A program made the translations under genes and the position numbers. DNA of 64,000 nt from Cornus controversa (lineage: Eukaryota; Streptophyta; Magnoliopsida; Cornales; Cornaceae). The notes under the pieces are model-generated. The model ran no database searches. It worked only from the letters and a program-made list of their open reading frames with translations, and had not been told where the DNA came from. Within the stretch, counting starts at the first letter, position 1. Every line of letters starts with the position of its first letter. Shown here one piece after another: positions 5,691 to 62,606 of the stretch. Location of the stretch: positions 38,017,501 through 38,081,500 of the forward strand of contig CM048846.1 of NCBI GenBank assembly GCA_026545225.1, read 5' to 3'.

Positions 5691-5692
5691 CC

Positions 5693-9062: not shown

Positions 9063-9071
9063 GATGCCCTA

Positions 9072-9330
<259 letters not shown>

Positions 9331-11362: not shown

Positions 11363-11590
11363 GGTCCAATCATTGATCGCAAAAATTTCTATAATAAATT
11401 GGGGTAGGTCCCTAGTATAGTTCCCTAGCCATGATTTTGCTATCTACTAGAATAATTTTACTGAAATATAAGATGAATTCCCGCAATGGGTAGAAATATA
11501 AAGAGTAAGTACGATTTTAAAATGCTTTACTTATGTAGAAATACAAAAGTAACAAACATTATAATTGGATTAATATCAGTGGATCAGTTT

Positions 11591-14159: not shown

Positions 14160-14270
14160 CTAAACAATCTTGCTGTTTTGAACATGAAGAGATAAAGAAG
14201 CCATTGCAATTGCTGGAAATACTATGCCTACTAAAGGCACCAAAACAGAGGGAAAGTCGAAAGTTTCCAT
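14160..14270 (-). pseudogene. psaI relic, frame still open
   Basis: Complete 36-codon photosystem I subunit VIII, reading [15 protein letters not shown] at the start and HVQNSKIV at the end, followed by TAG. One hydrophobic segment ([15 protein letters not shown]) is intact. As with psbL and psbJ, the open frame reflects short length; neighbours ycf4 and accD are broken. Confidence 0.95.
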
Positions 14271-17107: not shown

Positions 17108-18406
<1,299 letters not shown>

Positions 18407-19133: not shown

Positions 19134-19435
19134 ATGAGAATCAATCCTACTACTTCTGGTCCTCGGATTTCCACGCTTGAAAAAACAAACTTTGGGGTGT
19201 ATCGCTCAAATCATTGGTCCTGTACTAGATGTAGCTTTTCCTCCAGGTAAGATGCCTAATATTTATAATGCGCTGGTAGTTAAAGGTCGAGATACTGCTG
19301 GTCAACCAATTAATGTGACTTGTGAGGTACAACAATTATTAGGAAACAATCGAGTTAGAGTTATAGCTATGAGTGCTACAGATGGTCTAACGAGAGGAAT
19401 GGAGGTGGTTGACACGGGAGTGCCTCTAAGTGTTC
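19134..19435 (+). pseudogene. atpB 5' fragment
   Basis: The ATP synthase CF1 beta subunit begins [10 protein letters not shown] at 19134. One extra nucleotide in the A-run near 19180 shifts the frame, after which [19 protein letters not shown] to VDTGVPLSV is readable. The gene stops after about 100 codons at 19435, where repeat R begins. The nucleotide-binding P-loop and everything downstream are absent. Confidence 0.96.
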
Positions 19436-21695: not shown

Positions 21696-21817
21696 TTTTT
21701 TCTTTTTTTTTTGAGAAATGCTAAATTTCACAATTTTATTTCACGAATTTTAACTCGAATTACGTGATTAGGTGTCAACCTATGTGACAGATGTGATAGC
21801 CCATATGTTTTCTCTTA

Positions 21818-25119: not shown

Positions 25120-25643
25120 AAAAATGAACCATACAACAACTATTCTGCCAGTAGTGCAACTCAAGTATTCTTTTGGCAGGATGACTTAGTTCCTTGTTAC
25201 ATCTCAAAAATCGTGATTTTGTTGGGCTTAGTCCATGATTATGGTCAATCTTAACATAGCCCCCCAGTGTATTGACCATCATCATCAACTGTCATATTGA
25301 TTTTGGCCTTACAATTAGTTTTTGTGGATGGCTTTGGTTTGATAGAATTACTTGCTATGTCTTTTACCCTTCTAGATTTACGACATGAAAATATTACATA
25401 CTTCAACTTTTTATTTGCATCAAACTTTCTACTTTTCCTTGTCACACCAAAGCCTTCATGCTTACCATAGTTCTTGTAATAATCAAAAGTTTCATTATCT
25501 GAGTTAAAAACCATACCGGTTTTAGGTGCTTGAACTTCTCCGTACCCATTTGATGTTCCTTCAAGACCTTGTTCATTCATATTCTTACAACTAGCATTTT
25601 GTATATCTGATCCCATATTTATCTCCATAAAATCTTCTACTTC
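25120..25643 (-). pseudogene. FAR1-related DNA-binding domain, broken exon
   Basis: FAR1/FHY3-type factors are domesticated Mutator-like transposases with an N-terminal zinc-binding DNA-binding domain. The frame from 25628 reads MEINMGSDIQNASC, then the domain core FDYYKNYGKHEGFGVTRKS and VIFSCRKSRRVKD. After GGLC a 1-nt shift in a run of six Gs moves the frame. The domain then continues as VKIDHNHGLSPTKSRF and ends near LELHYWQ. A likely splice acceptor (TTTTTTTTGTAG) precedes GAAGTAGAAGATTTT at 25643. The transposase-like and SWIM parts are missing. Confidence 0.85.
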
Positions 25644-30525: not shown

Positions 30526-30647
30526 GGGAATTTAGCCAATCGTTTTAATGGGACTATTTTTATCCAATAAAAACTAGGGATAAGCTTATCCTCCCCATAA
30601 AAGAGGGAGAGACTAGCTTTTTCTATATATGTGTGTGTAATATATAT

Positions 30648-32052
30648 TGATGTGGCTAAACTTGAATTATATTGTAAGCTTATTTTTGCTCCTTTTATCA
30701 AAATATAATTTAACCACTCGCAAGAGCACGAATCTTTGTAGATACGGTTCTATATAGAGGGTATCGATCCCACGAGGACTAGTCGTAATTGTCTTAAAGA
30801 AAGATTAATTCCACTTTAATCCTAAAAACAAGGTTTTGATTTTTGTTTATAAAACTATTGCATGAATGTAAAAACAATAAATTTAAAGAGTTAAAAGTTG
30901 AGAGAGAGAATTAGGGGTGGTTTCCACCACTAGCCATTCACATGTCCATAAGTGTAGCAAGCTTGGGATTCATAAAGTCTAACAATGTCATTAGGCTTGT
31001 GACCTCAATGACATATCAAAAGATTAATGTGTGTGCAACCAATCATAATCCATCTTCAACAAGCATAGCTCTTCAACCTAACTACTTACCCTACTCTCTA
31101 AGTGAACCTAAATGCATCCAAACTACCTTATCTTGGCATGATTTATAGAAGTAAACATAACACATTCATTTAAACACCATTACTTAGCCATCATTTGCCC
31201 TTCTTGCGGAAGAAACAAATGTTGTGCATTCACAAGATAGATTCTACTCTAAGACAAGAATAAAACCAACAACAAATGAATATATATAAAAGATGTAAAA
31301 GTGTACATTGTCACTAGACTAAATAATTAACATTTACATATAAATCCCAAGATGCTACAAAAATAAACAAGTTTACATGGCTAGGGGTATCAACCACACC
31401 CTAGTAGAGAAGTTAGTTGGTTATGGCAGCCTTGCACTCTTCCATTGATGGAGAAAATGAAGCTTTAAGGTCTGGTTCAGCTCCTTCTTCTCCTCTCCCG
31501 AATCTCTCTTCTTTGTATGTCTGATGTGTGTATGAGATATATGAGAAAATGGCCTCTTTGTGTGCTTTATGGCCTCCTTTTCAACCTTGGGACCCACCAT
31601 ATATATATATATATCAACATATATACCAACTATATCAAGAAGGTCTCCAAATATCTTGTTCAAGTCAGACAATCCCTCTAAGTCATGCAGAAAGGGAGAT
31701 TTTGTTACAAGTGGGAAGAGCAGGTGAGCAAGTGGGCAAGTGGATCTACAGAATCTCGATCAATCAAAATGGGAATCTCGATTGATCAAGATTTTGATCA
31801 ATTAAAATCAAGTCTCGATCAATCGAGATCTCGATTGATCGAGATCAACATCTCGATTGATCGAGATGCCTTAGCTTTAATTCTGAACTTTGCTCTTCAG
31901 CTGCAGATGGCATCAAACCTTGCTCCTTTTACTACAAGACCTGCAATGCATCAAAAACACAAAAATACCGTAAACGTATCTCAGTAAACGTAAAAATGGG
32001 ACTAACATATGCAATAAAGAGGGTTCAAATACATAGTATTGAACACTTATCA
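30648..32052 (-). repeat. Element A 3' LTR
   Basis: Begins TGATGTGGCTAAACTTG on the + strand and ends GAACACTTATCA, so on its own strand it runs TGATAAGTG...CACATCA. It contains a dyad cluster at about 31752-31866 and a (TA)n tract at 31598-31625 that includes the likely TATA box. Preceded, on its own strand, by a polypurine tract. Confidence 0.95.
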
Positions 32053-33871: not shown

Positions 33872-34984
33872 CTAAGATCGCCCTCTGACCCTGCGCCAGA
33901 GACGTAATGTCTGTCCTAATAGCTTCCAGCTGACTTGCGTCACCTGGACGTGCTCCTCAAAACCCTGCTGGAGCCGCTCAACGTCAGCTGCCAGGCAGGA
34001 GTAGCCAGTTGCCAGGATCTCATGTCGCTCTGCGGCGATATCCATATCATAATCCCCCAACTCCTCCTCAGATGCCTCACCCTCGGCAGGCACACCCTCA
34101 TCCATCTCCACTGGGGCATCCATCTCCACATCCTCTGGTGGATCGCCCTGGTGGTCCTGTCGCTCCAAGTGTTGCCTCACCCGCTCCCACTGAGTAGGCG
34201 TGTAGTGGGAGGGCAGTGCCAGCTGGATGTCAGTATCACTGACCGATATGTTGGCACGGCTGAGGAAGGCTTCGACCAAGAAAGGAAAGGGAAGCCGCCA
34301 ACTCGTTTCTCGCCTCATGCCCTTGTTGCCAAGGCCGTCCCAGATTTTGAACATCTGCCCCCAAATCAGTGACGGGACAGAAAACCAAGTGCCCGTGTGG
34401 AAAGCGTACAGGCAACATAGAAGGTCGCCCCTGCGCTCTGCCACATGCTGTAAAGGACACGCGTTCTTGATGAGAATAGTGTCCAGGAACCATAATACAC
34501 TCGGGCACATCGATTTGGACGTGCAATTGTGACTGGGAGTGGTAAACACCCCGCCACATATGTCTATCATGATGGAGTACAGCGTCGTGTCTGTTGGAAA
34601 CTCAGCCTTGTAGATTGGCCGTCCGTTATGGTCAACCATATCTGGAGACTGCTGGTGAGGAATGCTGAGCATCTATGCGATCCGGCTCGGCGTGATAGTA
34701 ATTGTCGTGCCGCCTACAACCGTCTCAAGTGTGTCCGGCTCGGTGCAAGAGTAGGTCTTATGCTCATAAAAGACCTGCACCAAGCGTTCGTGCACCACAT
34801 CGGAGGGTGGCACACATAATCGGTCGAGGCAACGCCGCCTGAGCTCTACTACAGCCTACAAGCTGTCGGGACGTATCTCGTACTCTCTCAGCTCAAAACG
34901 CTGCTCGGGGTGGAACTTCCGTGTCCAGAAGGCTCGCGCGGGCACATCTCTAGCAGCACCGGGAGCATTCTTCACACGCGCCAT
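33872..34984 (-). pseudogene. Element A accessory ORF (plant transposon protein type)
   Basis: A 371-codon frame starting MARVKNAPGAARDVPARAFW at 34984, with two in-frame TAG codons (34856-34858 and 34673-34675). The last 266 codons are open. The core SVLWFLDTILIKNACPL, AERRGDL and WFSVPSLIWGQM aligns with the element B aORF and resembles the 'putative plant transposon protein' domain found behind pol in Athila-like elements. A 45-residue acidic linker (DPPEDVEMDAPVEMDEG) and a likely coiled coil (AADVERLQQGFEEHVQ) follow. No signal peptide or membrane segment argues for an envelope protein. Function unknown. Confidence 0.8.
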
Positions 34985-34998: not shown

Positions 34999-35490
34999 CT
35001 GCACTTATTCCAAAAATTAAAGTAAATAAAAAGAAAATAAAATGAATACTAAACTAAGAATAAAAATTAAAAAGGAGGTTCTAGTCCATGGTGCCGACAC
35101 ATGCTTTCCAAGATACACTCGAATCGACTCGACTAGGTCTACTCGGAATTGAAAACATGCCAATCATGAAATTCACAGGAGGTTCAATGTAGATTCGAGA
35201 GCAAAAATAACCATATGAATATGTCGCTCATTTAGCTCTTAACGAAACAGCGTAAGCGGATGCAACCGAAACAATGGGCCGCGGTTGCAAACCGTATATC
35301 AAGCATTCGAAACAAAAATAATGCAACCTCTCACCCATACATGCATTCCTACCCCTGAAACCCGTAAGATCCCAATATGAACATGGCGAATGCAACCCAC
35401 TCCAACCCACTCATCTTTATATGCTCATTACGGTGAAAAACTAACAAGAATGGCGGCAAAGTAATCAAAATATAACCATGCATCACTTAC
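34999..35490 (-). other. Probable leader intron of element A aORF
   Basis: On the minus strand a strong donor CTTGAG|GTAAGT lies at 35490 and an acceptor AAGTGCAG|ACT at 34999, with a T-rich tract before it. The acceptor is only 14 bases upstream of the aORF ATG. Upstream of the donor is a pyrimidine-rich, GC-richer leader (about 35491-35720). I infer a separately transcribed, spliced aORF message; no transcript evidence is available. Confidence 0.55.
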
Positions 35491-35721
35491 CTCAAGATGA
35501 AGATGAGGATCGGTGCAAGAAGAGGAAGTCCCAACACGCAGCCACGAAGAGACGAACGTGTGCGTATACGCGGAGAGCACGGACTACGGTGAATGATGGT
35601 GGATAGCCCAGAATGATCGAACAAGGGTTAGACAGCGCTCAAGGAAGATTTGGATGTCTCGGAGAAGAGGAGGAAGTTGGATGGTCTTGGGAAAAATTAT
35701 AAAAATGAGAGGGAGCCCAGC

Positions 35722-36120
35722 GGTTCGAATAAATAAGTGGCTCACGTGCAGGCAACGGGTCGATCTCGATTGATCGATATGTACATCTCGATCAATCGAG
35801 ATTTCGATCAATCAAAATCCTAGCTTCGATCAATCAAAATCCTAGCTTCGATCAATCGAGATCAAATCTCGATCAATCGGAATCCTTGCTTCGATCAATC
35901 GAGATCAAATCTCGATTAATCAGAATCCTTGCTTCGATCAATCAAAATGTCGATTGATCGAGGACTTATCGAAGTGCTATCGAAGTGAACCATCTCTCGG
36001 GACTTTGATCTTTGCAACAGGGCTCCAATATCTCTGCATTATTTTGATCGATCAAGACCAAGATCTCGATCAATCAAAATCTCAATTGATCGAGATCCTT
36101 GCTTCGATCAATCGAAATGC
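35722..36120 (-). promoter_or_regulatory. Internal dyad cluster and promoter-like region (A)
   Basis: About ten matches or near-matches to the palindromic word TCGATCAATCGA (often with AGAT/ATCT arms) fill 35758-35970 and 36050-36120. On the minus strand they are followed by CACGTG (35743-35748) and a TATA-like block CACTTATTTATTCGAACC (35722-35739), then the pyrimidine-rich leader. Similar words form the cluster in this element's LTRs. Confidence 0.65.
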
Positions 36121-36288: not shown

Positions 36289-37599
36289 TCATAAGTCAAC
36301 ATACATGGGATCCGTTAAAGTGACGACATCCACGTACTCCGTGTTAACTTGGTCATCCACACACAATTTCAAGCGCTGCCCGTTCACTTTAAACCATGAT
36401 CCATCTTTCACGTCCTTCAATTCCACCACTCCGTGGGGAGAAACAGAATTAACCAAAAATGGACCATCCCAACGGGAGCGAAGTTTCCGAGAAACAAATG
36501 GAGGCATGAGTTGTACAGCCATACTTTTTGGCCCAGAGAAAATGTTTTGACTCGAATATTGCGATCATGAAAGGCTTTTGACTTTTCCTTATAGATTTTA
36601 GCGTTCTCATACGCGTCATGTCGCAATTCTTCCAATTCATTTAATTGAAGCTTTCGATTAGATCTGACCATTTGCATGTCAAAATTGAAAGTCTTGGTGG
36701 CCCACATAGCCTTGTGCTCCAATTCAACCAGAAGATGGCACGCTTGGCCATAAACCAACCGGTAAGGTGACATTCCAATGAAAGTTTTATAAACAGTTCG
36801 GTAAGCCCATAATGCATCATTTAATCACAATGACCAATCTTTCCGGTCAGGCCGAACTGTTTTCTCAAGAATGTTCTTAATCTCCCTATTGGATACTTCC
36901 ACTTGGCCACTAGTTTACGGATGGTATGGGGTGGCTACTTTGTGTGTGACAGAGTATTTGGTAAGCAATGTTCGAAAGAACCAGTTATAGAAATGTTTAC
37001 CTCCGTCACTGATGAGGGCTCGAGGTGTACCAAAACGGCTAAAGATATTCGCTTGAATGAACTTAACCACGACTGCGTGGTCATTGGTTTTGGTAGCAAC
37101 GACCTCTATCCATTTAGAAACATAGTCCACCGCCACAAGTATGTATTCATGACCAGTAGAGGGTCGAAAAGGTCCCATGAAGTCAATGCCCCATACGTCA
37201 AATATCTCAACAATAAGAATAGGGTTGAGAGGCATCATGTCCTTCCGAGACATCGCGCCAAGGCGCTGACATCGCTCACACGAGCGGCAAAATGAGTATG
37301 CATCCCGATGAAGTGTTGGCCAGAAAAACCCGCATTGAAGAATTTTTGCTGCGGTTTTCGTAGCACTAAAGTGTCCCCCACAAGCAAGTGTATGACAGAA
37401 TTTAAGAATGCTTTGGAATTCACTGTTGGGTACACATTTTCGGATTATTTAATCAGAGCAATACTTGAATAATTGAGGCTCGTCCCAATAATATGATCGT
37501 GATTGGGAGAAAAATCGATCCTTCTCTTGCTTGGTCCAAGAAGATGGTATTTTACCGATTGCCAAGTAGTTGACAATGTCCGCATACCAAGAGATACTC
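36289..37599 (-). pseudogene. Element A integrase
   Basis: Contains the zinc-binding HHCC region ([13 protein letters not shown] and [11 protein letters not shown]), the catalytic core with [20 protein letters not shown] and [14 protein letters not shown], the SGQVEVSNREIK segment carrying the last acidic residue, and a GPF-type C-terminus ([16 protein letters not shown]) ending at 36289. Stops interrupt the frame near 36915 and 36830, and frameshifts occur near 36520 and 37250. No chromodomain follows, which fits non-chromoviral Ty3 elements such as Athila. Confidence 0.9.
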
Positions 37600-38935
37600 T
37601 CTTGAGAGATTACAAAGAGTTGTTCATCCGGAAAGGATTCACAAATTGGAATGGAGTCATGGAGGGATTCAACAAGAATTCTAGAGAGGTGGTCAGCACC
37701 ACATTTTTGGTCCCCTTTTTGTCTCTAATCTCAAAATTAAACTCTTGCAACAAGAGTATCCACCTGATCAATCTAGGCTTAGTGTCCTTTTTGGCCAAAA
37801 GATGCCGGAGGGCAGCATGGTCCGAATAGACAATGACCTTGGAACCTAGTAGATAAGCTCAAAATTTGTCCAATGCAAATACTACCGCAAGTAACTCCTT
37901 TTCCGTTGTGGTATAATTGATTTGAGCCTCGAAAAGGGTTTTACTTGCATAGTAGATAACATGTGGCAATTTGTCTACTCGTTGCCCTAAGATCGCACCC
38001 ATGACATAATCGGATGCATCACATATGATCTCAAATGGGAGAGCCCAATTTGGAGGGATGAGAATTAGAGCGGTTGTAAGTATGGTGTGGAGTTTTTCAA
38101 AAGCATTAAGGCACGCTTCATCAAACGTAAAACAAGACTCTTTTTCAAGAAGGTGACACAGAGGCCGAGAGATCTTGCTAAAGTCTTTGATAAAACGGCG
38201 GTAAAAGCTTGCATGCCCAAGGAAAGAACGAATCTCTCTCACCGTTGATGGTGGAGGAAGTTTGGAAATAAGTTCGACCTTGGCTTTGTCCACCTCAATT
38301 CCTCTCTTAGACATAATGTGCCCTAGGACAATACCCTCTTAAACCATAAAATGGCTCTTTTCCCAACTGAGGATTAGATTGGTCTCTTGACATCGTGTGA
38401 GAACATGGGATAGATTTTGGAGACATGATTCAAATGAAGGTCCAAACACGAAAAAATCATCCATGAACACTTCCAAGAAATTTTCCACCATATCCGAAAA
38501 GATAGACATCATACACCGTTGAAAAGTCGTCGGTGCATTGCACAACTCAAAGGGCATGCATCTATAAGCAAATGTGCCGAAAGGACATGTAAAGGTGGTT
38601 TTCTCTTGGTCCCTTGGGTCTATAACAACCTGATTATAACCGGAATATCCATCTAAGAAGCAATAAAAACTTTAACTGGCTAATCTTTCTAAGATTTGAT
38701 CGATGAATGGAAGAGGGAAGTGATCTTTCTGAGTTGCTGAATTTAGTTTCCGATAATCTATGCAAACTCTCCATCTCGTAATGGTCCATTGGGGAACTAA
38801 TTCACCCTTATCATTTGGTTGCACCGTAATACCGGACCGCTTAGGAACCACTTGAGTGGGACTAACCGACTTACTATCTGAGATGGGGTAAATGATTCTT
38901 GCATCTAGTAACTTTACCACCTCCTTCATTACAAC
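37600..38935 (-). pseudogene. Element A reverse transcriptase and RNase H
   Basis: Reads VVMKEVVKLLDARIIYPI, WRVCIDYRKLNSATQKDHFP, CMPFELCNAPTTFQRCM, the active-site box VFMDDFFVF (usual F/YxDD), then IRSFLGHASFYRRFIKDF and the RNase H part EIICDASDYVMGAILGQ and [20 protein letters not shown]. Stops occur near 38671, 38340 and 37858. The 5' end is separated from the protease ORF by a nested solo LTR. Confidence 0.92.
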
Positions 38936-38940: not shown

Positions 38941-40445
38941 TGATCGGCATCGAATGTTGCACATTCTACCCTCTTAATTTATATATTTTATTCTCTTAGT
39001 GTAGATTATTTTGTGATTTTACTTTGTTTTAGTGTTTTCTGTATTTTCAGGGCCTTAATGATTATTTCAGTTAAAACCATGCTTTTGGGCTTTTAAAGAT
39101 TACATTCAAGAGGGTTAGATGAAGCCTACATCAAAGGGATCCATTCAAATCCATAATCTAACTCAAATCAGCCCAAGATAGAGGTCCAAGAGAATTACAG
39201 TTGCTTAAGAAGGTTTCGGGCCTGAAGCCCAAATCTGCGTTTAATATAGTCTTAATCCCGTTTTGGAAAACTGACCAGAAGTCTTATTTTTGAGCCTCAA
39301 ATCGACATAATTTTCACAATAGGTTGAATGAAATTTGATTCTGCACACTTTTGTATTTCACGAATATTCCGTAACTCGGACTTCTAGTGGGTCAAAAGTT
39401 GGGCCGAAGCAGCAGAAAAAACCCACCTGATTAGTGCTGCGGGAAACCCTAGTTTATTCCTAATTGGATTAGGACTTTGGTGTATTCTCTTGGGGAAGAA
39501 AGTGAAGAATAAGAGGCTGGAGTTGAGGGGAGAGAAGAGAGATTGGAGAGTCAGAGAGGGCTGAGAAGAGAACAGAAACATATTTGCAGAGCCATTGGAG
39601 AACGAAGTCATACGCATAATTCATGAAGATGATGCCTTCTTCCTCAACAGTTGAAGCTTTTTCTTCTACCATGAGCGGCTAGTTCATCCACTAGGGTTTT
39701 GATGTAGCCCTAACAAAGTATCAATGGTTTGATTGTTTTAATTATTGGGGACCTTTATATACATGCATAGATTGTGTAATTCAGAGGATTCTTATTATAG
39801 AATTGAGCAATAAAAGTCTTGTAAATTCAATCTCAATGATTTTTTATCTTGTCTTAGATGTTTAGTTATTATTATTGAACTCAATCTCTCTTATTTTTTG
39901 TGATTATGAGAGCGATTATTACACAATGGTAATCACTGAATATATTGTTAAGAGCTTTGATGGATTATGCCTAGAGAAGATGAACCATACTGCACCCTAG
40001 ATTAGAGTAGTTAGGCAGATGGCTCATGCCAATTGAAGATAGTCCATGGCTTAGCCTTAATCATATGTTATCTTCTTGATGGATGAAGGTGAGCTTGTAG
40101 CCACCGACACCACTTATGCATGATGTAATTCCCCTATAGTTGATTCAATTGACTATTGATTGTGGAGTTAGTGGTGAAGTCAAACACCCTAGATTTCTCT
40201 CATATTATCTTCAATATCTATTTTACTTTGATTTATTTTATTTTACTTTTTAATTAGTTTAAAAATCAGAATTATTTTCTTTATAAATTTAATTAGAATT
40301 AATTCCGTATTCCAACTCATCAGACCATAATCCCTGAGGTACGATACCCCTTTCGATAGCCCTATTCTGCAAGGAATTCGTTCTATTGCGAAGTGTGGAA
40401 ATTTTTAATTGATATACTTTTTGAGTCACACTCACACACGAATCA
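38941..40445 (+). mobile_element. Solo LTR, family C, copy 1
   Basis: A 1505-bp sequence starting TGATCGGCATCGAATG and ending CACACACGAATCA, flanked by the 5-bp duplication GTCCT (38936-38940 and 40446-40450). Removing it and one GTCCT rejoins the RT reading frame of element A. No internal retroelement sequence is present, so it arose by LTR-LTR recombination. A second copy lies at 55368-56790. Confidence 0.93.
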
Positions 40446-42074
40446 GTCCTTCATATTTGGATTTAATCGACGTTGTGCCTCTCTTGAGGTCTTTGCATCT
40501 TCTTCCAGGTGTATGCGGTGCATACAAATAGAAAGATCTATTCCCTTAAGATCTGCTACACTCCATCCTATTGCTTCCTTGTGCTCTTTTAGCACTTTTA
40601 GAAGTTCCATCTTTTGATCATTGGTGAGATTGGAAGCAATAATGACTGGAAGGGTCTCATTAGCGCCCAAGAAAACATACTTGAGTGGAGCCGGTAGAGG
40701 CTTGAGCTCAAGTTGTGGTGGGGAAATTAGAGAAGGAGTTTGGGAAGTATTGGACAAAGGAGGCAACGGTTCTCTCAGAACTCTCCACTTAGGTAAGTTC
40801 ATAACAGTCGTGACATCGAGCATTGAATTAACTTCACAAATGGATTGCTCAATGTCATAATCATCACAGTTGAACTGATTTAGGCATGCCTCTAGAGGAT
40901 CCTTAGAAAGAATGGAAGGAAGTGCTTCTTGAACAAGGTCTTCCACTACATCAACACAAAAGCACTCACTTTCATTGTCGGATATGTGGTGAGAAGCATT
41001 AAAGATGTTCAAACAGACTTTCATATTCCCGAAAGAGATGCCCATCACTCCGGTACGGCAATTAACGCAAGCGTTTGCCGTGGCCAAAAATGGACGACCT
41101 AGAATGATAGGAATATGTCTATTTGGATTTTGGACCGGTTCCGTATCAAGGACTATGAAGTCCACTGGAAAGTAAAATTTGTCCACTTGAATTATCACAT
41201 CCTCAATGATGCCACGTGGTTGCTTCACAGAGCGGTCGGCAAGTTGCAACACAACTGTGGTAGGCTTAAGTTCCCCCAAACCTAATTGTTGGTAAACTGA
41301 GAATGGAAGCAAATTGACACTAGCCCCTAAATCAAGAAGTGCCTTTTCAAAAGCTTGATTTTCGATGGTGCATGAAATGGTTGGAGCACCCGGATCTTTG
41401 AATTTAGGAGGGGCTTGGTGTTGAAAAATGGAGCTTACTTGCTCAGTTATGAGAACCTTCTTAGGAACATTATTCCTAGATTTGCGCTTTTGAGTGCACA
41501 AGTCCTTCAAGAATTTAGCATATGAGAGAATTTGCCGGATTACATCAAGGAGAGGGAGATTGATCTTTACTTGTTTGAAGATCTCCATCATGTCTTGAAT
41601 TTTCTCTCCTTGCTTCCCAAAATGAGAAAGTTCCTTCAATCTTTGAGGGAAGGGAACCGGAGGTTCAAAAGAAGTGTCAAGATTTGATATAGATGGTGAC
41701 ACAACTTCACTTGCCTTTCCTTTTGGATTTTGTGGGACTTTGTTCACATTTGGATTTGATTGGGATTCTTTTGGATTTTTGCATTGTTCTTTAAATTCCT
41801 TTTCTTTTTCTTCCCCAACCTTGGAATTTATGATTTTTTCACTCCTTAAGGTGGTGATTGATTGAACTTGCTCTGGAGGAGCATTATAAGATGAAGATGA
41901 TGGATCTTTAATCACATGAACACCCTTAGGATTTGCCACCGGTTGACTTGGCAACTTACCTTCCTCTCTTCTATTCAAGGCATTAGCTAGTTGCCCGATT
42001 TGAGCCTCTAACCTAGCCATGGATTGAGCATTAGCTTCAAGCTTAGAGATTGATTGAGAGTGGGTTTGCAACAA
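40443..42074 (-). CDS. Element A gag C-terminus, protease and RT start
   Basis: An open frame of 543 codons. The N-terminal third is hydrophilic gag (SISKLEANAQSMARLEAQIG, VQSITTLRSEKI). The aspartic protease follows, with DLGASVNLLPFSVYQQLG as the active-site loop (DLG instead of DSG/DTG) near 41310-41340 and IPIILGRPFLATANA as the second conserved block. It then enters the RT N-terminal region (KEHKEAIGWSVADLKGID) and stops after LNPNMKD. The stop codon is supplied by the last bases of the nested solo LTR, so the frame was longer before that insertion. Confidence 0.9.
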   Translation of the reverse strand: MLQTHSQSISKLEANAQSMARLEAQIGQLANALNRREEGKLPSQPVANPKGVHVIKDPSSSSYNAPPEQVQSITTLRSEKIINSKVGEEKEKEFKEQCKNPKESQSNPNVNKVPQNPKGKASEVVSPSISNLDTSFEPPVPFPQRLKELSHFGKQGEKIQDMMEIFKQVKINLPLLDVIRQILSYAKFLKDLCTQKRKSRNNVPKKVLITEQVSSIFQHQAPPKFKDPGAPTISCTIENQAFEKALLDLGASVNLLPFSVYQQLGLGELKPTTVVLQLADRSVKQPRGIIEDVIIQVDKFYFPVDFIVLDTEPVQNPNRHIPIILGRPFLATANACVNCRTGVMGISFGNMKVCLNIFNASHHISDNESECFCVDVVEDLVQEALPSILSKDPLEACLNQFNCDDYDIEQSICEVNSMLDVTTVMNLPKWRVLREPLPPLSNTSQTPSLISPPQLELKPLPAPLKYVFLGANETLPVIIASNLTNDQKMELLKVLKEHKEAIGWSVADLKGIDLSICMHRIHLEEDAKTSREAQRRLNPNMKD

Positions 42075-43129
42075 GCAAGTATTAGCCTCAAGATTGCTTA
42101 TGACTCTTTCTTCAAAGCCTTGGCTTCTCGGAGGAGGTGGTGGTTATTGGTAGTTGGATCTTGGATGGTAAGGTTGAGGATTTGGCCTATATTGAGGCTG
42201 TTAAGATTGAGAATTAAAGGAATTTTGCCTTTGAAAAGAGGGACTTGGTTCTTGGGATTTTCATGAAAATGCCGAATGATTCTTGTAACCAAGATTGTAG
42301 GTATTTAAATATGGATCATTGATTTGTTTAGAGTATAAGGCATTCGCTTGCTCTTGAGCATAATCGGGAGATTGACTGGCAATAGGGCAATCTCGCACAT
42401 AATGTTAAGTGCTATAGCAAAATGAACATCCTTCCTGATTTTGAACAGGTTGGCTTGGAATAGGTAGCCCATTTTTCATGATTTGGTCCATTTTCGGGTT
42501 AAGGCTTCTACTTGCATGGAAACTCATCTACCCTTGAAATCTCATGCACTCTTCTACAAGATTGGGTGGATTTCCTTTTTCTAGTGGAGGAGCGTTGAGC
42601 TGAATTATTGCTTAGGGTTTGAAAAAATTTCCATGCCTCATCCGGGCTTTTCAAAAGGTATCCACCTCCACAAGCGGAGTCTATCATTTGCCTATATTGC
42701 TCACTCACCCCATCATAAAAGCTTTGCACTAGTTGCCATTTTGGGACAGCATGGTGCGGACAAGATTTAAGAAGATCTTTTAATCTCTCCCAAGTCTCAT
42801 GAAATTGTTCTTGATCAATTTGGGTGAATTCGGTGATTGCTCGCCGAATATCACTTATCTTTCCCATCTGGGAATTGAATACACGAAGGTACTTCAAATG
42901 TAGTCGGAAGATAAAAGTCCATAAGCAATTCTCCTTGAGGAAGAGGAGGTGGAGGTTGTTGTTCATGATTAAAAGGAGGTAGTCCGGGAGGTTGTCTCTC
43001 ATTTGGTTCCATGTTTTCAGTCCTAGGCAATATAGGGTCCCTAGAGGTTCCTCTACGTTGTCTAAGTGTTCTCTCAAGTTCAATATTAAATGGAAGCAAA
43101 TGATGTGACAATGACCGTCTACCTAGCAT
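42075..43129 (-). pseudogene. Element A gag N-terminal region
   Basis: Starts MLGRRSLSHHLLPFNIELER at 43129, matching the gag start of the element at 62867. The frame goes off after CIQFPDGKDK. Homology resumes in another frame as DIRRAITEFTQIDQEQFHE to VSEQYRQMIDSACGGGY. Against the other gag, the central segment (TINLLTCFHG to WEFLKKFFP) is missing, an internal deletion of roughly 330 bp near 42865. A CCHC-type zinc knuckle (CSFCYST-stop-HYVRDC) is at about 42389-42440. Confidence 0.88.
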
Positions 43130-43396: not shown

Positions 43397-43414
43397 TCCC
43401 CGGCAACGGCATCA
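43397..43414 (-). promoter_or_regulatory. Element A primer-binding site (tRNA-Asp type)
   Basis: On the minus strand TGATGCCGTTGCCGGGGA follows the 5' LTR. It equals the tRNA-Asp complement TGGCGCCGTTGCCGGGGA seen at 62607-62624 except for two changed bases in the GGCGCC part. Confidence 0.88.
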
Positions 43415-43420
43415 AAATTT

Positions 43421-44831
43421 TGATGTGGCTAAACTTGAATTATATTGTAAGCTTATTTTTGCCCCTTTTATCAAAATATAATTTAACCACTCGCAAGAGC
43501 ACGAATCTTTGTAGATACGGTTCTATATAGAGGGTATCGATCCCACGAGGACTAGTCGTAATTGTCTTAAAGAAAGATTAATTCCACTTTAATCCTAAAA
43601 ACAAGGTTTTGATTTTTGTTTATAAAACTATTGCATGAATGTAAAAATAATAAATTTAAAGAGTTAAAAGTTGGGAGAGAGAACTAGGGGTGGTTTCCTC
43701 CACTAGCCATTCACATGTCCATAAGTGTAGCAAGCTTGGGATTCATAAAGTCTAACAATGTCATTAGGCTTGTGACCTCAATGACATATCAAAAGATTAA
43801 TGTGTGTGCAACCAATCATAATCCATCTTCAACAAGCATAACTCTTCAACCTAACTACTTACCCTACTCTCTAAGTGAACCTAAATGCATCCAAACTACC
43901 TTATCTTGGCATGGTTTATAGAAGTAAACATAACACATTCATTTAAACACCGTTACTTAGCCATCATTTGCCCTTCTTGCAGAAGAAACAAATGTTGTGC
44001 ATTCACAAGATAGATTCTACTCTAAGACAAGAATAAAACCAACAACAAATGAATATATATAAGAGATGTAAAAGTGTACATTGTCACTAGACTAAATAAT
44101 CAACATTTACATATAAATCCCAAGATGCTACAAAAATAAACAAGTTTACATGGCTAAGGGTATCAACCACACCCTAGTAGAGAAGTTAGTTGGTTATGGC
44201 AGCCTTGCACTCCTCCATTGATGGAGAAAATGAAGCTTCAAGGTCTGGTTCAGCTCCTTCTTCTCCTCTCCCGAATCTCTCTTCTTTGTATGTCTGATGT
44301 GTGTATGAGATATATGAGAAAATGGCCTCTTTGTGTGCTTTATGGCCTCCTTTTCAACCTTGGGACCCACCATATATATATATATATATATATCAATATA
44401 TATACCAACTATATCAAGAAGGTCTCCAAATGTCTTGTTCAAGTCAGACAATCCCTCTAAGTCGTGCAAAAAGGGGGATTTTGTTGCAAGTGGGAATAGC
44501 AAGTGAGCAAGTGGGCAAGTGGGTCTGCAGAATCTCGATCAATCAAAATGGGAATCTCGATTGATCAAGATTTGGATCAATCAAAGTCAAGTCTCGATCA
44601 ATCGAGATCTCGATTGATCGAGATCAACATCTCGATTGATCGAGATGCCTTAGCTTTAATTCTGAACTTTGCTCTTCAGCTGCAGATGGCATCAAACCTT
44701 GCTCCTTTTACTACAAGACCTGTAATGCATCAAAAATACAAAAATACCGTAAACATATCTCGGTAAACGTAAAAACGGGACTAACATATGCAATAAAGAG
44801 GGTTCAAATACATAGTATTGAACACTTATCA
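43421..44831 (-). repeat. Element A 5' LTR
   Basis: Near-identical to 30648-32052. On its own strand, about 186 bases from the start, a dyad cluster (44531-44645) contains six copies or variants of TCTCGATCAATCGAGAT. A CTGCAG (44525-44530), CACTTG repeats (44508-44523) and a (TA)n tract with the likely TATA box near 44370-44405 follow. The same order, cluster then CTGCAG, CACTTG repeat and TATA, is found in the element B LTR. Confidence 0.95.
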
Positions 44832-48669: not shown

Positions 48670-50010
48670 GTAAGGGTGGTGAGCTCAATTGGGCGGTATA
48701 GTCCTCTCAACGAGTGATGAGAAAATTTGGTAAAAGGAACCCTCATGGGGTGGACTGGTATAAGAGCCCCAGTAGATGAAAGAAGATACTCCCTAAAACG
48801 AAGTCCTATGATGAGGTGGACTGATATAAGAGCCTCGAATAGGTGGGATTGGGCAGTCTGAAAAATCAAAATCCAATAAACTGTGTGGAGAGTATGAGGG
48901 AGTTATACATATCATGTTGCATTGTTTATTGCTTAAGATATGGTTGTGATATACGGTATTTGCTTAAAATGATTAAATGCAAATGTATGTTTATGTAGTA
49001 TTCATGGAACTTGCAAAATTGTGTTTTAGACATTCCTACTTAGTGTGTTGTATCTTATCCCATTGGTATTAACTATTTTCAAGAAATGAAAACGAGGTGA
49101 TGAAGTCTCCTCAACGATAAATTTGGCGTGGAGCGGAGTTGATTTCATTTAAAGACTTTATTTTTGTTTTATTTGAATACATGTCTAGATTGTAGACTAC
49201 ATGCATGTGATGAACATGTAAAGACCATTTATGTCTCGAGAACATGTAATTATTTATGTCTTATGACTTCATATATTATAAGCATGGTATTAAGCATGAT
49301 GGAATCCTAGATGATTTAAATGATGATCTTTCATTTATGTTTATTTCTACATGTATAAACTTGTGAGAATGATTGTATTGATGTATTGGTAAAAATGAGG
49401 TGTATGCATGCTAAGAATGGGGACCATAGTGTATGAAAGAACACATAAAAAATTCTATATAGTATCAGCAGTCGAGGGATTTTGATCAATCGAAACCCAT
49501 ATTTCGATAAATCGGAATACCTCAATTGTGCGAATCATGTTGCGAGAATTTTGATGGAAGATAAGTAAAGTTCCAGTAAGGTTTCAAAAGTACTTCGATA
49601 CAAGTTCAATCATGCATAAATTTCGATCATGCAAAACCATCATTTCGATTAATTGAAATGCACTTTGCATAATCGAAAGGTGCATTTCGATCATGTGAAA
49701 TGGGTATTCACTGTGTGTTTTAAAGGGGCTCATATATGCTTGTTTACAATAAAAGACACACATAATAGACTAGAATTGCTTACGAATGTATACACATTAT
49801 ATTAATGGTATACAGAATGCTTCTAGTAGACTTTGAGAACACAACTTAGATTGTTGATCATCATGACATATCCGGTGAAGGATTGATGTGTTGATGTATA
49901 TGATAAGAATTTTGCTGTATATAATGATCTCGATAGTTCGGGTAGGATTCGAGGGTGATATTGATAGTACTTGTCATGGTTGTCCAGGTCTAGAATGGCA
50001 CGACGAACCG
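48670..50010 (+). mobile_element. Repeat family E, right copy
   Basis: Inverted homologue of 5693-6978, about 85 percent similar by eye. It contains dyads such as TTTTGATCAATCGAAA near 49480 and ATTTCGATTAATTGAAAT near 49645. Homology fades at about 50010 before reaching the TGTGACA end seen in the left copy. Probably part of an LTR of a separate Ty3 family; no coding region was found next to it. Confidence 0.6.
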
Positions 50011-51659: not shown

Positions 51660-52683
51660 ATGATCACTTTGGCAGATTTGAGTAATGTAATTGGTGGAAT
51701 TACAAAACTTAATCACACCAATTAAGAAATATGGAGCACTTGTATAATGTCCTATTTAATAGGACAAGATTTGTGGGAGATAGTTAGTGGTAGCGACACT
51801 ACACCACCTTCTAGTGAGAATGTTGAGCCACTACGAAAATGGAAATCAAATCGGGAAATGCAATGTATGCACTCAAGATATCAGTGGATCCTGAATTATT
51901 GGGATACATTAAGGATGCAAGGACACCAAAGGATGTGTGGGAACTCTCGCCTCACTCTTCTCAAAGACGAATGATGCTCACCTTCAAATGCTAGAGAATG
52001 AGTTAATGACTACCACATAACAAGGTATGCCAATTACTCAATATTTTAAGAAAATAAAAGATTTGTGCTGTGAAATATCGTTATTGGATCCTGAATCAAA
52101 AATTAGCGAGCAAAGGATGAGGAGGATAATTATTCGAGGCCTAAAGCCCGAATATAATGGATTTATTATAGCGATACGTGGGTGGCCAACTCAACCCACT
52201 CTTGTTGAATTAGAAAACTTGTTGGCAAACCAGGAGACCCTAAACAAATAGATAAGTGGGGTCTTGATAAAAGATGATGAGGAAGCACTCTTTAGCAATA
52301 ATACAAGAGGGAGAGCCAGAGGATAAAATGAAGCAAAAAACTCGAATAAAGAGAAGAGAAGCTTTTGCGCAGGGGGAGCTCAACCGAATAGACAACAACA
52401 TGGGCAACGTTATGAAGGTTCTAGATGGCATAACGTTGAGTGCTTCAACTGTGGCAAGAAGGGCCATTATGCTTGAGATTGCTTGCATAAGAAGAAATCA
52501 GTAGAAGGTAATCTGGCGACATCTAATAGCCAGGAAATGAACAGTGAAGAAGAATGGGACGCTGAAGCATCTTTCTCGGTGTTCGAACCTATTGAAAAAA
52601 ATTATTCAAAAGAGGAATGCTCTAGTGAGAGGAAGGAAGTTAAGGAATCAGATTTTGGATTCGCTTCAATATACAAACATTGA
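51660..52683 (+). pseudogene. Ty1/copia gag
   Basis: Starts about 51660 (LADLSNVIGGITKL, then CIMSYLIGQDLWEIV) and continues through ITQYFKKIKDLCCEISLL and RIIIRGLKPEYNGFI. The zinc knuckle CFNCGKKGHYA-stop-DC lies at about 52437-52481 and carries a TGA. Multiple frameshifts and stops break the gag frame. Confidence 0.88.
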
Positions 52684-55084: not shown

Positions 55085-57508
55085 GAGTTTAACAAAGAAC
55101 AAGCTCAATCAATTACTACTCTAAGGAGTTGTAGAGTGCTAGAAAATTCGGTTGACAAAATGAGGGAGAAAGAATGTTAGCGTCCTATAAATCCAAACAT
55201 TCTCATTTTTAATCCAAATGATATTCCTCTAAATCCAAAAGAGTTCTCAAATAATTCAAAAGATAAAGGAAAGGAGAAGATCATTGAAGCTAAATTCTCA
55301 TCTATTCCAATTCAAGAGGCTTCATATGAACCTTATATTCCCTTTCCTCAAAGACTAAGGTAACCTTTGATAGGCATTGAATGTTACGAATTCTAGCCTC
55401 TTAAATTGTGTATTTTATTCTCTTAGTAAGAGATTATTTTGTTATTTTACTTTGTTTTAGTATTTTCTGTATTTTCAGGGCCTTAATGATTATTTTAGTT
55501 AAAACCATGATTTTGGACTTTTAAAGATGATATGCAAGAAGGTTAGATGAAGCCTACATCAAAGGGATCCATTGAACTCCATATTTTAACTCAAATCAGC
55601 CCAAGATAGAGGTCCAAGAGAATTACAGCTGCTTAAGAAGGTTTCGGGCCTGAAGCCCAAATCTGCGCATAATACAGTCTTAATCCCGTTTTGGAAAATG
55701 GACCAGAAGTCTTATTTTTGAGCCTCAAATCGACTTATGTTATGCGTAAGGTTGAATGAAATTCGATTCTGCACACTTTTGTATTTCACAGAAATTCTAT
55801 GAATCGGACTTCTAGTGGGTCAAAAGTGGGGTCGAACGTCAGCAGGAAAAACCCACCTGATTAGTGCTGCGGGAAAACCTAATTAATTCCTAATTGGATT
55901 AGGACTTTGATGTATTCTCTTGGCTATTTAAAGTGACAAATTGGGGCTGTATTGGGAGGCTTGGCAGTAGCTTTGAAGAGCTTTTGGAGTAGAGAATCAT
56001 TGGAGAATAAGGCGTATCATGAGCGGCTAGTTCAGCCAGCAGGGTTTTGATGTAGCCCTAACTAAACATCACTGGTTTGATTGTTCTAATTATTGGGAAT
56101 TTTTGTATTCATTTATAGATTGTGTAATTTAGAAGATTCTTATTATAGAATTGAGCAATAAAAGTCTTATAAACTCAGTTTCAATGATCTCTTATCTTGT
56201 CTTAGATACTTGATTGTTGTTATTGAACTCGTCCCTCTTATTTTCTGTGATCATGAGAGTGATTATTACACAATGGTTTTCACTGAATATATCATTAAAA
56301 GCTTTGATGGATTATGCCTAGAGAAGATGAACCATACTGCACCCTAGATTAGAGTAGTTAGGCAGATGGCCCATGCCAATCGAAGATAGTCCATGACTTA
56401 GCCTTAATCATATGTTATCTTCTTGACGGATGGAGGTGAGCTTGTAGCCACCGACACCACTTATGCATGATATGATGCCCCATAGTTAGTTCAATTGACC
56501 ATTGATTGTGAAGTTAGCGGTGAAATCAATTACCCTAGACTTATCTTATATTCTCTACACTCCTTAGTTTTTCTTGCTTTTGTTCAATTGCTTCATTAGA
56601 TACAAAAATCAGCAACTTATTTCTTTTAAATTTAATTAGAATTAGTCCTAACAATTCAACTCAATCAGACCACAGTCCCTGAGGTTCGACACCCCTTTCG
56701 ATAGCCCTATTCTACAAGGAATTCGTTCTATTGCGAAGTGTGGTAATTTTTAATTGATATACTTTTTGAGTCACACTCACACATGAATCAACCTTCTCAA
56801 TTTGGGAAACAATGTGAGAAATTGCAAGATATGAAAGAAATCTTCAAACAAGTGAAAATCAATCTTCCTCTCCTAGATGCTATAAAATAAATTCCCTCCT
56901 ATGCTAAATTTCTAAAGGATTTATGCACTCAAAAGCGTAAATCTAGGAATCAAGTGCTTAAGAAAGTCCAATTAACTGAGCAAGTGAGTTTAATTCTCCA
57001 AACCCCTCCAAAATTCAAGGATCTGGGTGCCCCAACAATCTCTTGTGTCATTGGTGACCATGAATTTGAGAGAGCCCTCCTTGATTTGGGAGCAAGTGTT
57101 AACTTACTTCCTTACTCGGTTTATAGAAAATTAGAGCTAGGAGAGCTTAAGCTGATCACAGTTGTGTTGTAACTAGCCGACCGTTCGGTGAGGCAACCAC
57201 GTGGAATAATTGAGGATGTTCTGATCAAATTGAACAAATTCTATTTTTTGGTGGCCTTTATAGTCCTTGACACCGAACCTATCCAAGATCCTACAGAGCA
57301 TATTGCGATCATCCTAGGTCATCTATTCTTGGTTACGGTTAATAGTTGCGTTAATTATCATACCGAGGTGATGAACATCTCCTTTGGGAATATAACTATG
57401 AGGTTGAATACTTTTGACGCACCTCACCGCACTTCCAATGATGAGAGTGAATGCTTTGGGGTAGCTAATGTGCATAAACTTGTGCCCACGTCTCGCCCTA
57501 GACGGTAA
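55085..57508 (+). pseudogene. Element B gag C-terminus and protease
   Basis: The + strand gag part (AQSITTLRSCRVLENSVDKM, YIPFPQRLR) is interrupted by a solo LTR at 55368-56790 and resumes as FGKQCEKLQDMKEIFKQVK and FLKDLCTQKRKSRN. The protease follows, with LLDLGASVNLLPYSVY near 57085 and HIAIILGHLFLVTVNS near 57300. Homology ends around ECFGVANVHKLV (57480). RT, RNase H and integrase are missing, a deletion that joins protease directly to the post-pol region. Confidence 0.87.
55368..56790 (+). mobile_element. Solo LTR, family C, copy 2
   Basis: Starts TGATAGGCATTGAATG and ends CACACATGAATCA, flanked by the 5-bp duplication ACCTT (55363-55367 and 56791-56795). It is similar to 38941-40445 over its whole length apart from indels around 55925. 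Removing it restores gag continuity (PQRLR to SQFGKQ). Confidence 0.93.
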
Positions 57509-57679: not shown

Positions 57680-57916
57680 TTCGATGCATCGAAGTAGCCA
57701 TTTTGATGCATCGACATTAGCGTCGATGTATCGATCTTTAAAAAGTTCCATTTCTCTATCGATTCCAACAGCCTTCACACCTTGCGTTGATTTATGGTCG
57801 ATGCATCGAAACCTCTATTTCGATGCATTGACAGCGATGATGCATCGAAGTAGCCACTTTGATGCATCGCACTAAAGCACGTGACTGCACACACAATCAC
57901 TTAAATATTTGAATCC
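57680..57916 (+). promoter_or_regulatory. Internal dyad cluster and promoter-like region (B)
   Basis: Seven copies or variants of TCGATGCATCGA occur at 57680-57870. CACGTG (57878-57883), a TATA-like block CACTTAAATATTTGAATCC (57898-57916) and a pyrimidine-rich leader (57917-57990) follow. Order and TATA-like block match element A at 35722-36120; the palindrome differs at its centre. Confidence 0.62.
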
Positions 57917-58355: not shown

Positions 58356-59486
58356 ATGGTTCGAAACAAGGCCCCTATGGGAGTTATTCGAGATGTCTCG
58401 AGTGGACAATAGAAGAATCGAGGATTTATACCCGAAAGTTTGATAGTGGCATCAGATTTTGGGGATGACTACTATGCTCGCTGGAGTCTCGATGTCTTAC
58501 GGGATCGTGGTCTCCTACCCTTGCTATCTCCTACAACTGATATAGTTTACCCAAGTCTTGTACAAGCCTTTTATATGAACCTCATATATGACTGTGCAGA
58601 GCCCGGCATTTTGAGGACTACTGTGGATGTCACGACTCTTGCCATTACAGCCACCATTATTACCGAGATCACCGAGCTGCCCCATGTGCAACCTGAGTTT
58701 GTTGAGTTGAGTGAGGACCATTTTGAATTCCCCGAGCTCCCACAGCATCTTACACATTCTCATATGGTGCGAGAACTATGTAGGGGTCATTTTCCCAATT
58801 ACAAGAATAACGCCATAAACAAGTATTTGATTCCTCGGCGTTGGTGGTTCTTGGATATCGTACTTTATAAGAATGCTCACCCTTTTGGACATTCTACTGA
58901 GCGTCGGGGTGAGTTCTTAGAGGCCCTCTACGCAATGGAAACTGGGTGTTGGTTTTCCATGCCCGCTATTATTTGGGGCCAGCTTCACAAGGCCTGGGAC
59001 CAACTGATTCAGAAGGAATAAGAAATCTCCGTCGATGAAGCTGTCATTCCCCTACCTCATTACCGCCTTTTTTACTAGGGTGACTATTGAGTTTGGGACT
59101 CTGAGATTACCATTGGACCGTCGTCGCATTTTGCTCTCCAGAGTTGGAGGAAGATGGTGGCCCATATGTCCACCTTGCCCCAAGTAGCCCCCGAGGTGGA
59201 GGTAGGTGATAGTGAGGAGGGTGAGGATACTTCAGAGGAGCCCGAGGTTGATGTGCTGGGCATAAGTACCAAGGACTATAAGTACCTCATTGGTGGTATA
59301 GCCTGTCTAACTGCCGATGTAGCGCGTCTTTTGACAAACTTTGATATGCAGTGTCAGGCTGCATTAGAGGAGCGCCGTGTGGCAACTGAGCACCGGAGAC
59401 AAACAGAGGAGCGCTTAGATACTCTTACTGTTAAAGTCCATGCCATTTTAGATGGGCAGGATTGCCTTATGCAACTATTCAGCTGA
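58356..59486 (+). pseudogene. Element B accessory ORF
   Basis: Starts MVRNKAPMGVIRDVSSGQ at 58356, with a TAG at 58410. It is then open from 58440 to 59021 (SLDVLRDRGLLPLLSPTTDI, RWWFLDIVLYKNAHPFG, ERRGEFLEALYAMETGCWF, AIIWGQLHKAWDQL). Three more in-frame stops lie between 59019 and 59100, then the C-terminal part (ACLTADVARLLTNFDMQCQA, ERRVATEHRRQTEERLD) is open to 59486 and looks like a coiled coil. It is the same family and layout as the element A aORF. Confidence 0.82.
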
Positions 59487-61236: not shown

Positions 61237-62601
61237 TGATAAACGTTGAATGTTATATATTTTTGCGCCTTTACTTTTGTATTTTGATCCCATAGCTGAA
61301 CATATTGTATAGTTTTTATGTGTTTTTATGTTTCTGATGATTTCAGGTTCAAAGTCAGAATTTGGCGTAATTCGACTACTTTATGGAAAGTCCACATTAA
61401 GGAATAGTGAATGGCGTGTCAAGACCGGAGTCGAAAAGTTAAAGAGTGAAGATCTGCAGAAAAAGGAAGATCGATGCATCGAAGTGCCTACTTCGATTCA
61501 TCGAAGTTCATACTTCGATGCATCACCCAAGCCTGCAGAAGATATTTCTCTGCAGATATTTTCTTCACTTGCCACTTGTCCAATTTTGCTTAGATAAAGT
61601 CTTGAACGGAATTTCTATGATATTTTCAGCCTCAAATCAGTTATATAGCTAGAAAATATGTAATATTGAAAAAAACATCACAATTCTTGTAATAGAGAGC
61701 ATATATAGAATTGTAGAGAGAGAAAATGAAGTTCTAAAGAGGGAAAGTTTCAAAGAGGGCTTTGTCAGGCCTTGAAGACCATTTTGAGCATGGGACCATC
61801 TCTGTCTATGGAGTGCTTCAAGCCCATCATGATTAACTAATCCTTCTCTAGGGTTTTGACAAACCCTAGTAATGTAAATATGTTTTAACTTCAATGAATT
61901 GGGGATTTTTATGTACTTTGTGTATATGTTTCTTGCCTTGAGCCTTGTATTAATATAAGTTTACAAATTCTTCAAGTTCATGTGTTGTAATTTATCTTCT
62001 TGTCTTAGAAGTGCTTAAATTCCTCACATACTCCTCAAACACTTGTAAGTTTCACAAGGACTACAAGTGATGGCTTGAGACTAATTTTTACTATAACATG
62101 CATAGCTAGATTTGCATAGTCCATGCTTAGAGATGGTTATTTCACTACACTTAGGTAATTAGATAATTAGGTAAGTAGGTAGGTAGAAAAATCACGCTTA
62201 TCGAAATTAGATTATAGTATATTAAGGTGTGTGTATTCTCTTGGGGACGTCATTATACGTAGGACTTGTCAACGCGTTATTTAGTACACATCTACATGAA
62301 TTCTCCCAATTTATTAGAAGTGTGATATACTACGAGGCTAGTGGTGAAGTCTAACCCTAGTCCTTTACCTTTCTCTCAAAACTTTGTATTTAAATTATAT
62401 TTTATGCTTTCAAATTAAAGTAAGAAAACAACCAACACTCGGTTGTGATTTAAACAAGAACCAACCCTCAACCTTTAGTGAGTTATACCTACGTAGTCTC
62501 TGTGGGATCCACACCCTCAACTTAGAGCCTTATCCTTCAATGATTCGTTCTATTGCGAGTGGTAAATTTATAAATTGCGAGTAGCGCAACCGCACACAAC
62601 A
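61237..62601 (+). repeat. Element B LTR, shared 3'/5' LTR
   Basis: Starts TGATAAACGTTGAATG after a polypurine tract and ends GCACACAACA before a primer-binding site. It therefore serves as the 3' LTR of the unit on its left and the 5' LTR of the unit on its right. A dyad cluster with GATCGATGCATCGAAG variants lies at 61470-61526, followed by CTGCAG (61533-61538), CACTTGCCACTTG (61566-61578) and a TATA box (ATATATAG, 61701-61708). The arrangement is as in the element A LTR. Confidence 0.82.
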
Positions 62602-62606
62602 ATTTT

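Follow-up and report, generated by a model that had tools for sequence, protein, structure and literature searches.

The window analysed here, a stretch of 64,000 nucleotides from the genome of Cornus controversa, carries on its minus strand an element, termed element A, that we classify as an Athila-type Ty3/gypsy retrotransposon. The following features were assigned to it.

43417..44831, minus strand: 5' LTR, U3 beginning at 44831; 97.2% identical to 30644-32052
43397..43414, minus strand: primer binding site (PBS), TGATGCCGTTGCCGGGGA, read from the sequence
42508..43122, minus strand: gag piece (PF03732)
40443..42143, minus strand: frame with protease (PF13650)
37859..38338, minus strand: RNase H piece (PF17919/PF17917)
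36915..37448, minus strand: integrase piece (PF00665 and PF17921)
33872..34984, minus strand: accessory ORF (aORF) region, first ATG at 34984, in frame with the open frame 33872-34672
30644..32052, minus strand: 3' LTR, pairing with 43417-44831

The pol domains scanned in element A follow the Ty3/gypsy order, protease-RNase H-integrase, and we take its PBS to be Athila-like. The LTR starts with TGATAA, and a GGGGG tract precedes this start in the 3' copy. The aORF lies in sense orientation downstream of the integrase and before the 3' LTR, and is disrupted by in-frame stops before 34672.

A second set of features, termed element B, is found on the plus strand. We regard it as the 3' part of an element related to A, not as a whole element.

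56795..57499, plus strand: protease piece, 69.6% to A by tblastn
58356..59486, plus strand: aORF region, 41% identical to the A aORF over the best tblastn stretch
61237..62604 (approximate ends), plus strand: LTR, followed by a PBS (~62607) and gag pieces

The B aORF is also disrupted by in-frame stops, located just before 58413, ending at 59021 and just before 59091. The PBS after the B LTR is an exact match to TGGCGCCGTTGCCGGGGA, presumably a hallmark of the Athila lineage. Within 61237-63978, the LTR ends the upstream element, yet PBS and gag pieces come next, so that this LTR is shared with another internal region; the arrangement resembles the outcome of unequal recombination. An earlier sequence-only reading of the window had named this set element B, a term that has to be qualified in this respect.

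Other parts of the window are of different origin. Plastid-derived DNA, apparently rearranged, occupies ~6979-18230 with petA pieces, cemA, the rbcL start and the psbJ region; an Rfam scan gave matches only to plastid psbJ entries. Ty1/copia-like integrase and reverse transcriptase pieces were recognised by eye in ORFs at 52021-54581, and a FAR1 DNA-binding domain was recognised in a minus-strand ORF at 25254-25643, which may be a relic of a MULE or of FAR1. The segments 70-3365 and 19433-21702 are duplicated, with 86-94% identity in the longer matches.

Both elements carry arrays of short palindromic words (dyads) at two matching places. In element A, dyads of the form TCGAT-YR-ATCGA are found in each LTR, within U3, and between integrase and aORF, where an array of 350 bp is built of tandem 43-bp units; in element B, dyads of the form TCGAT-GC-ATCGA are found in the LTR and upstream of the aORF.

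44535..44643, minus strand: U3 array of the A 5' LTR, 5 dyads (at most 1 mismatch), steps 22-37-16-22 in plus-strand coordinates
35766..36115, minus strand: A internal array, 12 dyads (at most 1 mismatch), steps mostly 22, 21 and 16
31756..31864, minus strand: U3 array of the A 3' LTR, 5 dyads, steps as in the 5' LTR
57681..57870, plus strand: B internal array, 5 sites (at most 1 mismatch) or 7 (at most 2), steps 22-20-75-22-17-22
61471..61526, plus strand: B U3 array, 3 sites spaced 22 bp apart, 2 of them with no more than 1 mismatch

The spans of the two B arrays count in sites with 2 mismatches. These positions bear out the clusters that the sequence-only reading had placed in both A LTRs and the integrase-aORF gap, and in the LTR and upstream of the aORF of B. 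Its coordinates for the internal A array were right, while the stretch that it had marked from 35722 also spans a wordless region with a G-box and an AT-rich box. Its statement that the words of A and B differ only at the dyad centre has to be abandoned: the centre is CA/TG in A and GC in B, and the flanks, compared by eye, differ as well, being often GATCTCGATYRATCGAGATC in A and ACTTCGATGCATCGAAGT in B. One of the two B LTR sites that pass at one mismatch has the centre TC.

With at most one mismatch, TCGATNNATCGA matches the window 36 times, and 29 of these matches fall inside five stretches totalling 5,688 bases (A 5' LTR 5, A internal 12, A 3' LTR 5, B internal 5, B LTR 2). None of 500 dinucleotide shuffles per stretch reached the observed count in any of the five, with shuffle means of 0.02-0.30; for the A internal array the mean was 0.30 and the maximum 3, as compared to 12 observed. 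The A word alone has 27 matches in the window against 0.27 expected, and the B word 7 against 0.03. We reject a chance origin of the arrays, as no shuffle reaches the observed counts.

A search of the window's own genome (771.7 Mb) gave 5,475 first-look candidates for the A aORF, 144 of them scored, and 5,604 for the B aORF, 150 of them scored; A and B belong to large families in this genome. Among 20 fetched A copies, 19 carry LTR arrays of at least three sites, positioned ~190 bp past the LTR start where that start was recognised, and 12 retain the complete six-site array with steps of 22, 16, 21-22, 16 and 21-22 bp. Internal arrays are present in 17 of the 20, all of which also carry an LTR array; the matched part of the aORF follows them at a distance of ~1.0-1.4 kb (~2 kb in L049), and L039 has only 2 sites. 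Extra six-site LTR-type arrays beside the normal ones in L033 and L041 probably represent nested or tandem LTRs. More distant relatives (18 fetched) have an internal array in 17 cases, an LTR array in 11 and both in 10. Seven show no LTR word, five of them without a recognisable LTR start in the fetched window; b46 had no LTR words over a further 521 bases, which may or may not belong to its LTR. Wherever both arrays are present, the word class is the same at the two places, with weak matches in b78 and c40.

Under a strict criterion, 25 copies of 40 rows carry both arrays, namely 17 A copies, 7 B-class copies and c40, with A and B of the window included. Left out of these counts were L031, where the array upstream seems to be that of an adjacent LTR, L034 and L050, which lack an internal array, c47a, whose internal window is occupied by another element, and b68, b46, c51, c47b, c45, c42 and c46, in which no LTR words were seen. 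The array of L049 lies beyond the strict window and was counted only in the tally of 17 among 20, and b70b, b61 and b53 have both arrays by a looser criterion only and stand outside the 25. By hand tally, the centre dinucleotide is YR in 230 of 234 sites of the 17 A copies and never GC, and GC in 51 of 59 sites of the 7 B-class copies and never YR. Across the 25 strict copies, none of 10,000 random pairings brings internal and LTR profiles as close together as they are within a single copy. This control supports the proposal of the sequence-only reading that the cis-element changes in step at two places. Among the eight non-A copies, own-pair similarity beats 9,860 of 10,000 random pairings and is reached in 140; the internal profiles of c40 (0.208) and b78 (0.167) are as close to the nearest LTR of another class (0.208 and 0.167) as to their own.

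Some diverged relatives carry a third word class, D, with ACGATGCATCGT, often with ATT/AAT flanks; a core, GATNNATC, is common to the A, B and D words. Internally, the D word occurs in b46, c51, c45, c46 and c40, where it is in part decayed or mixed; the LTRs of c47a and c40 also have it, in what we read as a CpG-decayed state. The LTR of a copy at C8:7697462 mixes D and B words, and an internal D pair was also found there; b40 mixes B and D words at both places. Genome-wide the D pair is present at 48 places and its reversed control at 0. Of these 48, five were assigned: one lies, by eye, just upstream of a B-aORF candidate (among the 150 scored of 5,604), and 4 fall within copies of another, non-coding repeat, E (L088-L090).

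An aORF tree of 24 pieces and 110 columns, with 4 of its 21 inner branches well supported, groups class A together (100/100) and leaves B and D clustered with 3 changes each. With classes assigned by us, including the mixed copies b40 as B and C8:7697462 as D, the three word classes need 4 changes on this tree against a minimum of 2 and an average of 11.5 for shuffled labels. The word thus follows descent, with perhaps more than one change of the flank base. Co-evolution of word and aORF fits the tree, short of proof.

The dyads are set at regular distances. The commonest steps are 22 (49 times), 16 (26) and 21 (18) in A internal arrays and 22 (33), 16 (28) and 21 (15) in A LTRs; the B and D internal arrays favour 22 (20), 17 (9) and 20 (8), and their LTRs 22 (11), 38 (3) and 28 (1). 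Steps of about 2 or 1.5 helical turns would suit the co-operative binding of a dimeric protein. When U3 was aligned for 20 LTRs, 18 from other copies and two from the window, conservation of the word columns was 0.970 as compared to 0.939 in other columns and 0.937 in the 29 columns of spacer between the words, and CpG decay has removed 23 of 217 in words (12 sites) against 31 of 116 elsewhere (6 sites), in a comparison of few sites and related copies with word columns picked by their likeness to the word. Taken together, the shared arrays, their spacing of 1.5 or 2 turns, their conservation and the lower CpG decay in U3 suggest sites for one dimeric factor, and it is plausible that this factor acts on both arrays.

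The internal array is followed by a block that resembles a promoter in both elements.

35728..35748, minus strand: A promoter-like block, G-box CACGTG (from 35748), AT-rich box TTATTTATT (from 35736), then a pyrimidine-rich stretch
35485..35493, minus strand: A splice-donor-like GAG/GTAAGT; an acceptor-like GCAG ends at ~34999
57878..57910, plus strand: B promoter-like block, G-box CACGTG, AT-rich box TTAAATATTT, then a pyrimidine-rich stretch

In element A the array, CACGTG, TTATTTATT, the pyrimidine-rich stretch, the donor-like site, the acceptor-like GCAG and the first aORF ATG succeed each other in this order, from which we infer a leader intron before the aORF. The order of array, G-box, AT-rich box and pyrimidine run is kept between families whose aORFs are ~41% identical. 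Among the 20 fetched A copies, 13 have the G-box at the matching place and 10 an unaltered AT box; the donor string recurs unchanged in 11 and the acceptor string of the window in 2. When 17 sequences were aligned, conservation of the G-box (0.980) exceeds the 95th percentile of 10-column windows (0.976) and that of the donor (0.961) the all-column mean of 0.908, while the AT-rich box (0.894) stays below this mean. Among 18 B/D-type sequences, 13 continue past the array with CACGTG or a variant one transition away, and most of these run on, by eye, into CACTTAATATT-like, CT-rich DNA; the AT-box pattern matches only 6. Since a G-box and a pyrimidine run often come after the internal array, the aORF is probably served by its own internal promoter.

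We consider it rather probable that two Pol II promoters of an Athila-type element share one set of sites and one factor, the identity of which we leave open. This model reads binding, dimerisation and promoter activity from features that were seen directly, i.e., the arrays, their matching words, spacing and position, and the promoter-like block. Briefly, the first promoter would be the LTR, with the array ~190-300 bp into U3 and upstream of a TATA-rich stretch, and the second would lie in the integrase-aORF gap, where the array ends just before the G-box, AT-rich box and pyrimidine run, and would probably drive the aORF. Near-palindromes at 22, 21 or 16 bp would be bound co-operatively by a dimeric protein, and a single sequence-specific factor on both promoters would coordinate the genomic RNA with the aORF RNA. 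One factor at both promoters would also oblige both arrays to keep one word while that word drifts between subfamilies.

The factor could be supplied by the host, a reading that we hold to be somewhat unlikely. The dyads would then be bound by a dimeric plant protein, or by several paralogues, and a single host programme would have captured both promoters. The core shared by the A, B and D words agrees with this reading, as does the G-box adjoining the internal array, a common host motif in plants. Related dyads moreover occur in a second repeat family of the same genome. This repeat, C, is represented in the window at 5683-6979 and 48678-49990, begins with TGTCACACCCC (~5683) and is probably a long LTR; its dyads, at 6110/6251 and 49482/49504/49645, are word-like dyads of the window outside A and B, and steps are mostly 20-22 bp. 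It is matched, at 5776-6979 and 48678-49990, by repeat E (L088-L090, L092 and L093), which has ACGATGCATCGT arrays. In the stretches read, C/E showed no convincing coding match to A or B, the aORF included. Similar words in another repeat favour a host factor or sequence copying; the C/E repeat may use the same factor as A and B, or may simply show a host factor reading such words. However, one host factor alone would not lead us to expect a word that varies between families of one genome and yet matches within an element; paralogous factors would be needed for this.

It is improbable, in our estimate, that no factor is shared at all and that the internal array was copied from U3 by template switching or gene conversion, with tandem expansion keeping the likeness, in which case the match of words would reflect history and not function. 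The tandem 43-bp structure of the A array would be in accordance with such an origin. In relatives of B even the spacers agree between the LTR and the internal array (AGT....ACT at both places), so sequence copying could explain the match of the words there. Yet the internal spacers of the window's element A are of a AAGCAAGGATT kind not seen in U3, the U3 words outlast the spacers between them, and the internal array stands just before a G-box in families with aORFs as diverged as those of A and B. Least likely is an element that works at the RNA level, with the palindromes forming transcript hairpins or hairpin sources of small RNAs, as is reportedly proposed for maize Sirevirus LTR palindromes: five of five tested stretches do fold better than all of 200 shuffles (z -3.1 to -8.3), but good folding is expected of any palindrome array, regular spacing is unnecessary for hairpins, and the U3 array, being placed before the TATA-rich stretch, would be transcribed only at the 3' end.

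If one factor acts on both promoters, we see the most likely candidate in the aORF's own product, which would serve as an autoregulatory activator or an anti-silencer; to this suggestion we give slightly less than even weight. The aORF product is the most economical candidate because its own promoter holds the second array and because a relative in sunflower combines a predicted nuclear localisation signal with similarity to Transposase_32. PF20167 (Transposase_32) was the sole recurrent family match of the aORF; it came up with the main piece of each window aORF and with all 7 relatives scanned, with E-values from 0.0094 to 1.6e-7 and always under the curated cut-off (45 bits). In the Athila lineage a sense aORF at this position would carry Transposase_32 / ATHILA ORF-1 similarity. 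No DNA-binding domain was recognised in the aORF by the family searches. DUF1985, which we take to be a domain of VANC, was absent at E-values up to 10 from 3 window pieces and 7 relatives, in searches where the HMMER filters drop most matches above ~0.1. A recognisable VANC homologue was rejected on this absence. An AlphaFold2 model of the A aORF piece from 3 rows was uninformative (mean pLDDT 42, pTM 0.23), and a PDB sequence search with one aORF relative gave a single match at E 0.94, which was disregarded. A protein database search found one relative of the A aORF (P0001) and, at E-values up to 0.001, none of the B aORF or of L010; viral contigs contained no exact A pair and no confirmed integrase relative. 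The PF20167 match and predicted nuclear localisation signal of the sunflower Athila sense aORF are described in PMC11728184. In its fullest form, which we put forward tentatively, the proposal is that the Athila sense aORF, for long referred to as env-like, encodes a nuclear, sequence-specific DNA-binding regulator of its own LTR and internal arrays that prevents silencing. Such a regulator would be VANC-like or Tat-like and independently evolved, with word and protein drifting together between subfamilies.

The nearest published precedent that we found is the repeated motif (RM) of Sireviruses and not VANDAL. As described by Bousios et al. (2010, PMC2829016), Sirevirus RM boxes are palindromic, with an element-specific word around a common core, and are repeated many times in the upper LTR half, before the TATA box. 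Nine of 13 elements have an extra cluster before the env-like ORF, with 77 of 79 linker copies upstream of it, while the linker of 4 elements lacking an env-like ORF has no RM boxes; an internal env promoter was proposed by these authors and not conclusively identified. The likeness to our elements covers palindromic repeats both in the LTR before TATA and before an env-like ORF or aORF. Sireviruses, however, are Ty1/copia elements, whereas those studied here are Ty3/gypsy by domain order, and their core is CGG-CCG instead of GATNNATC, with the Tnd-1 word ACAATCGATTGT coming nearest (PMC2829016). The spacing lattice and the copy-by-copy covariation found here were not met in the covered part of that account.

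The VANC anti-silencing proteins of VANDAL transposons, which the sequence-only reading had offered as an analogy, remain one at the level of function only. VANDALs are DNA transposons, and their Arabidopsis motifs, YAGTATTAY and AGTTGTMC, are non-palindromic, unlike the LTR retrotransposon dyads described here; binding of VANC21 was demonstrated by ChIP-seq and EMSA (PMC5735166 and PMC10398659). Grande and Retand have an extra ORF between pol and the 3' LTR, which is antisense and in Retand encodes a TRP28 domain, in contrast to the sense aORF with weak Transposase_32 similarity studied here, and the text covered of PMC7264820 and PMC11963269 mentions no LTR-matching palindromes. For the Grande aORF, the title of a paper in a reference list reports a promoter of its own. 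Our own searches of open-licence literature, at the level of titles and opening lines, found among the papers listed no report of Athila palindromes matching an aORF promoter. We also see a resemblance to En/Spm. In this DNA transposon the element-coded protein TnpA acts on clusters of a subterminal 12-bp motif by its own promoter.

The two-place palindrome architecture as such is already known from Sireviruses (PMC2829016). New, as far as our literature searches reached, are its presence in Athila, the covariation of the words and the spacing lattice. The role of env-like or accessory ORFs in plant retrotransposons is described as an open question (PMC7264820), and whether Tork and Athila encode such ORFs, and whether these modulate the epigenetic landscape, "remains to be investigated" (PMC12844716). 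The arrays offer a concrete, family-specific target of 12-20 bp at two promoter-like places of one element, by which control of both switches by the element's own extra protein becomes testable with one protein and three probes. One layout with different cores in the Ty1/copia Sireviruses and in Ty3/gypsy Athila would suggest that plant retrotransposons with an extra gene have arrived at this solution repeatedly.
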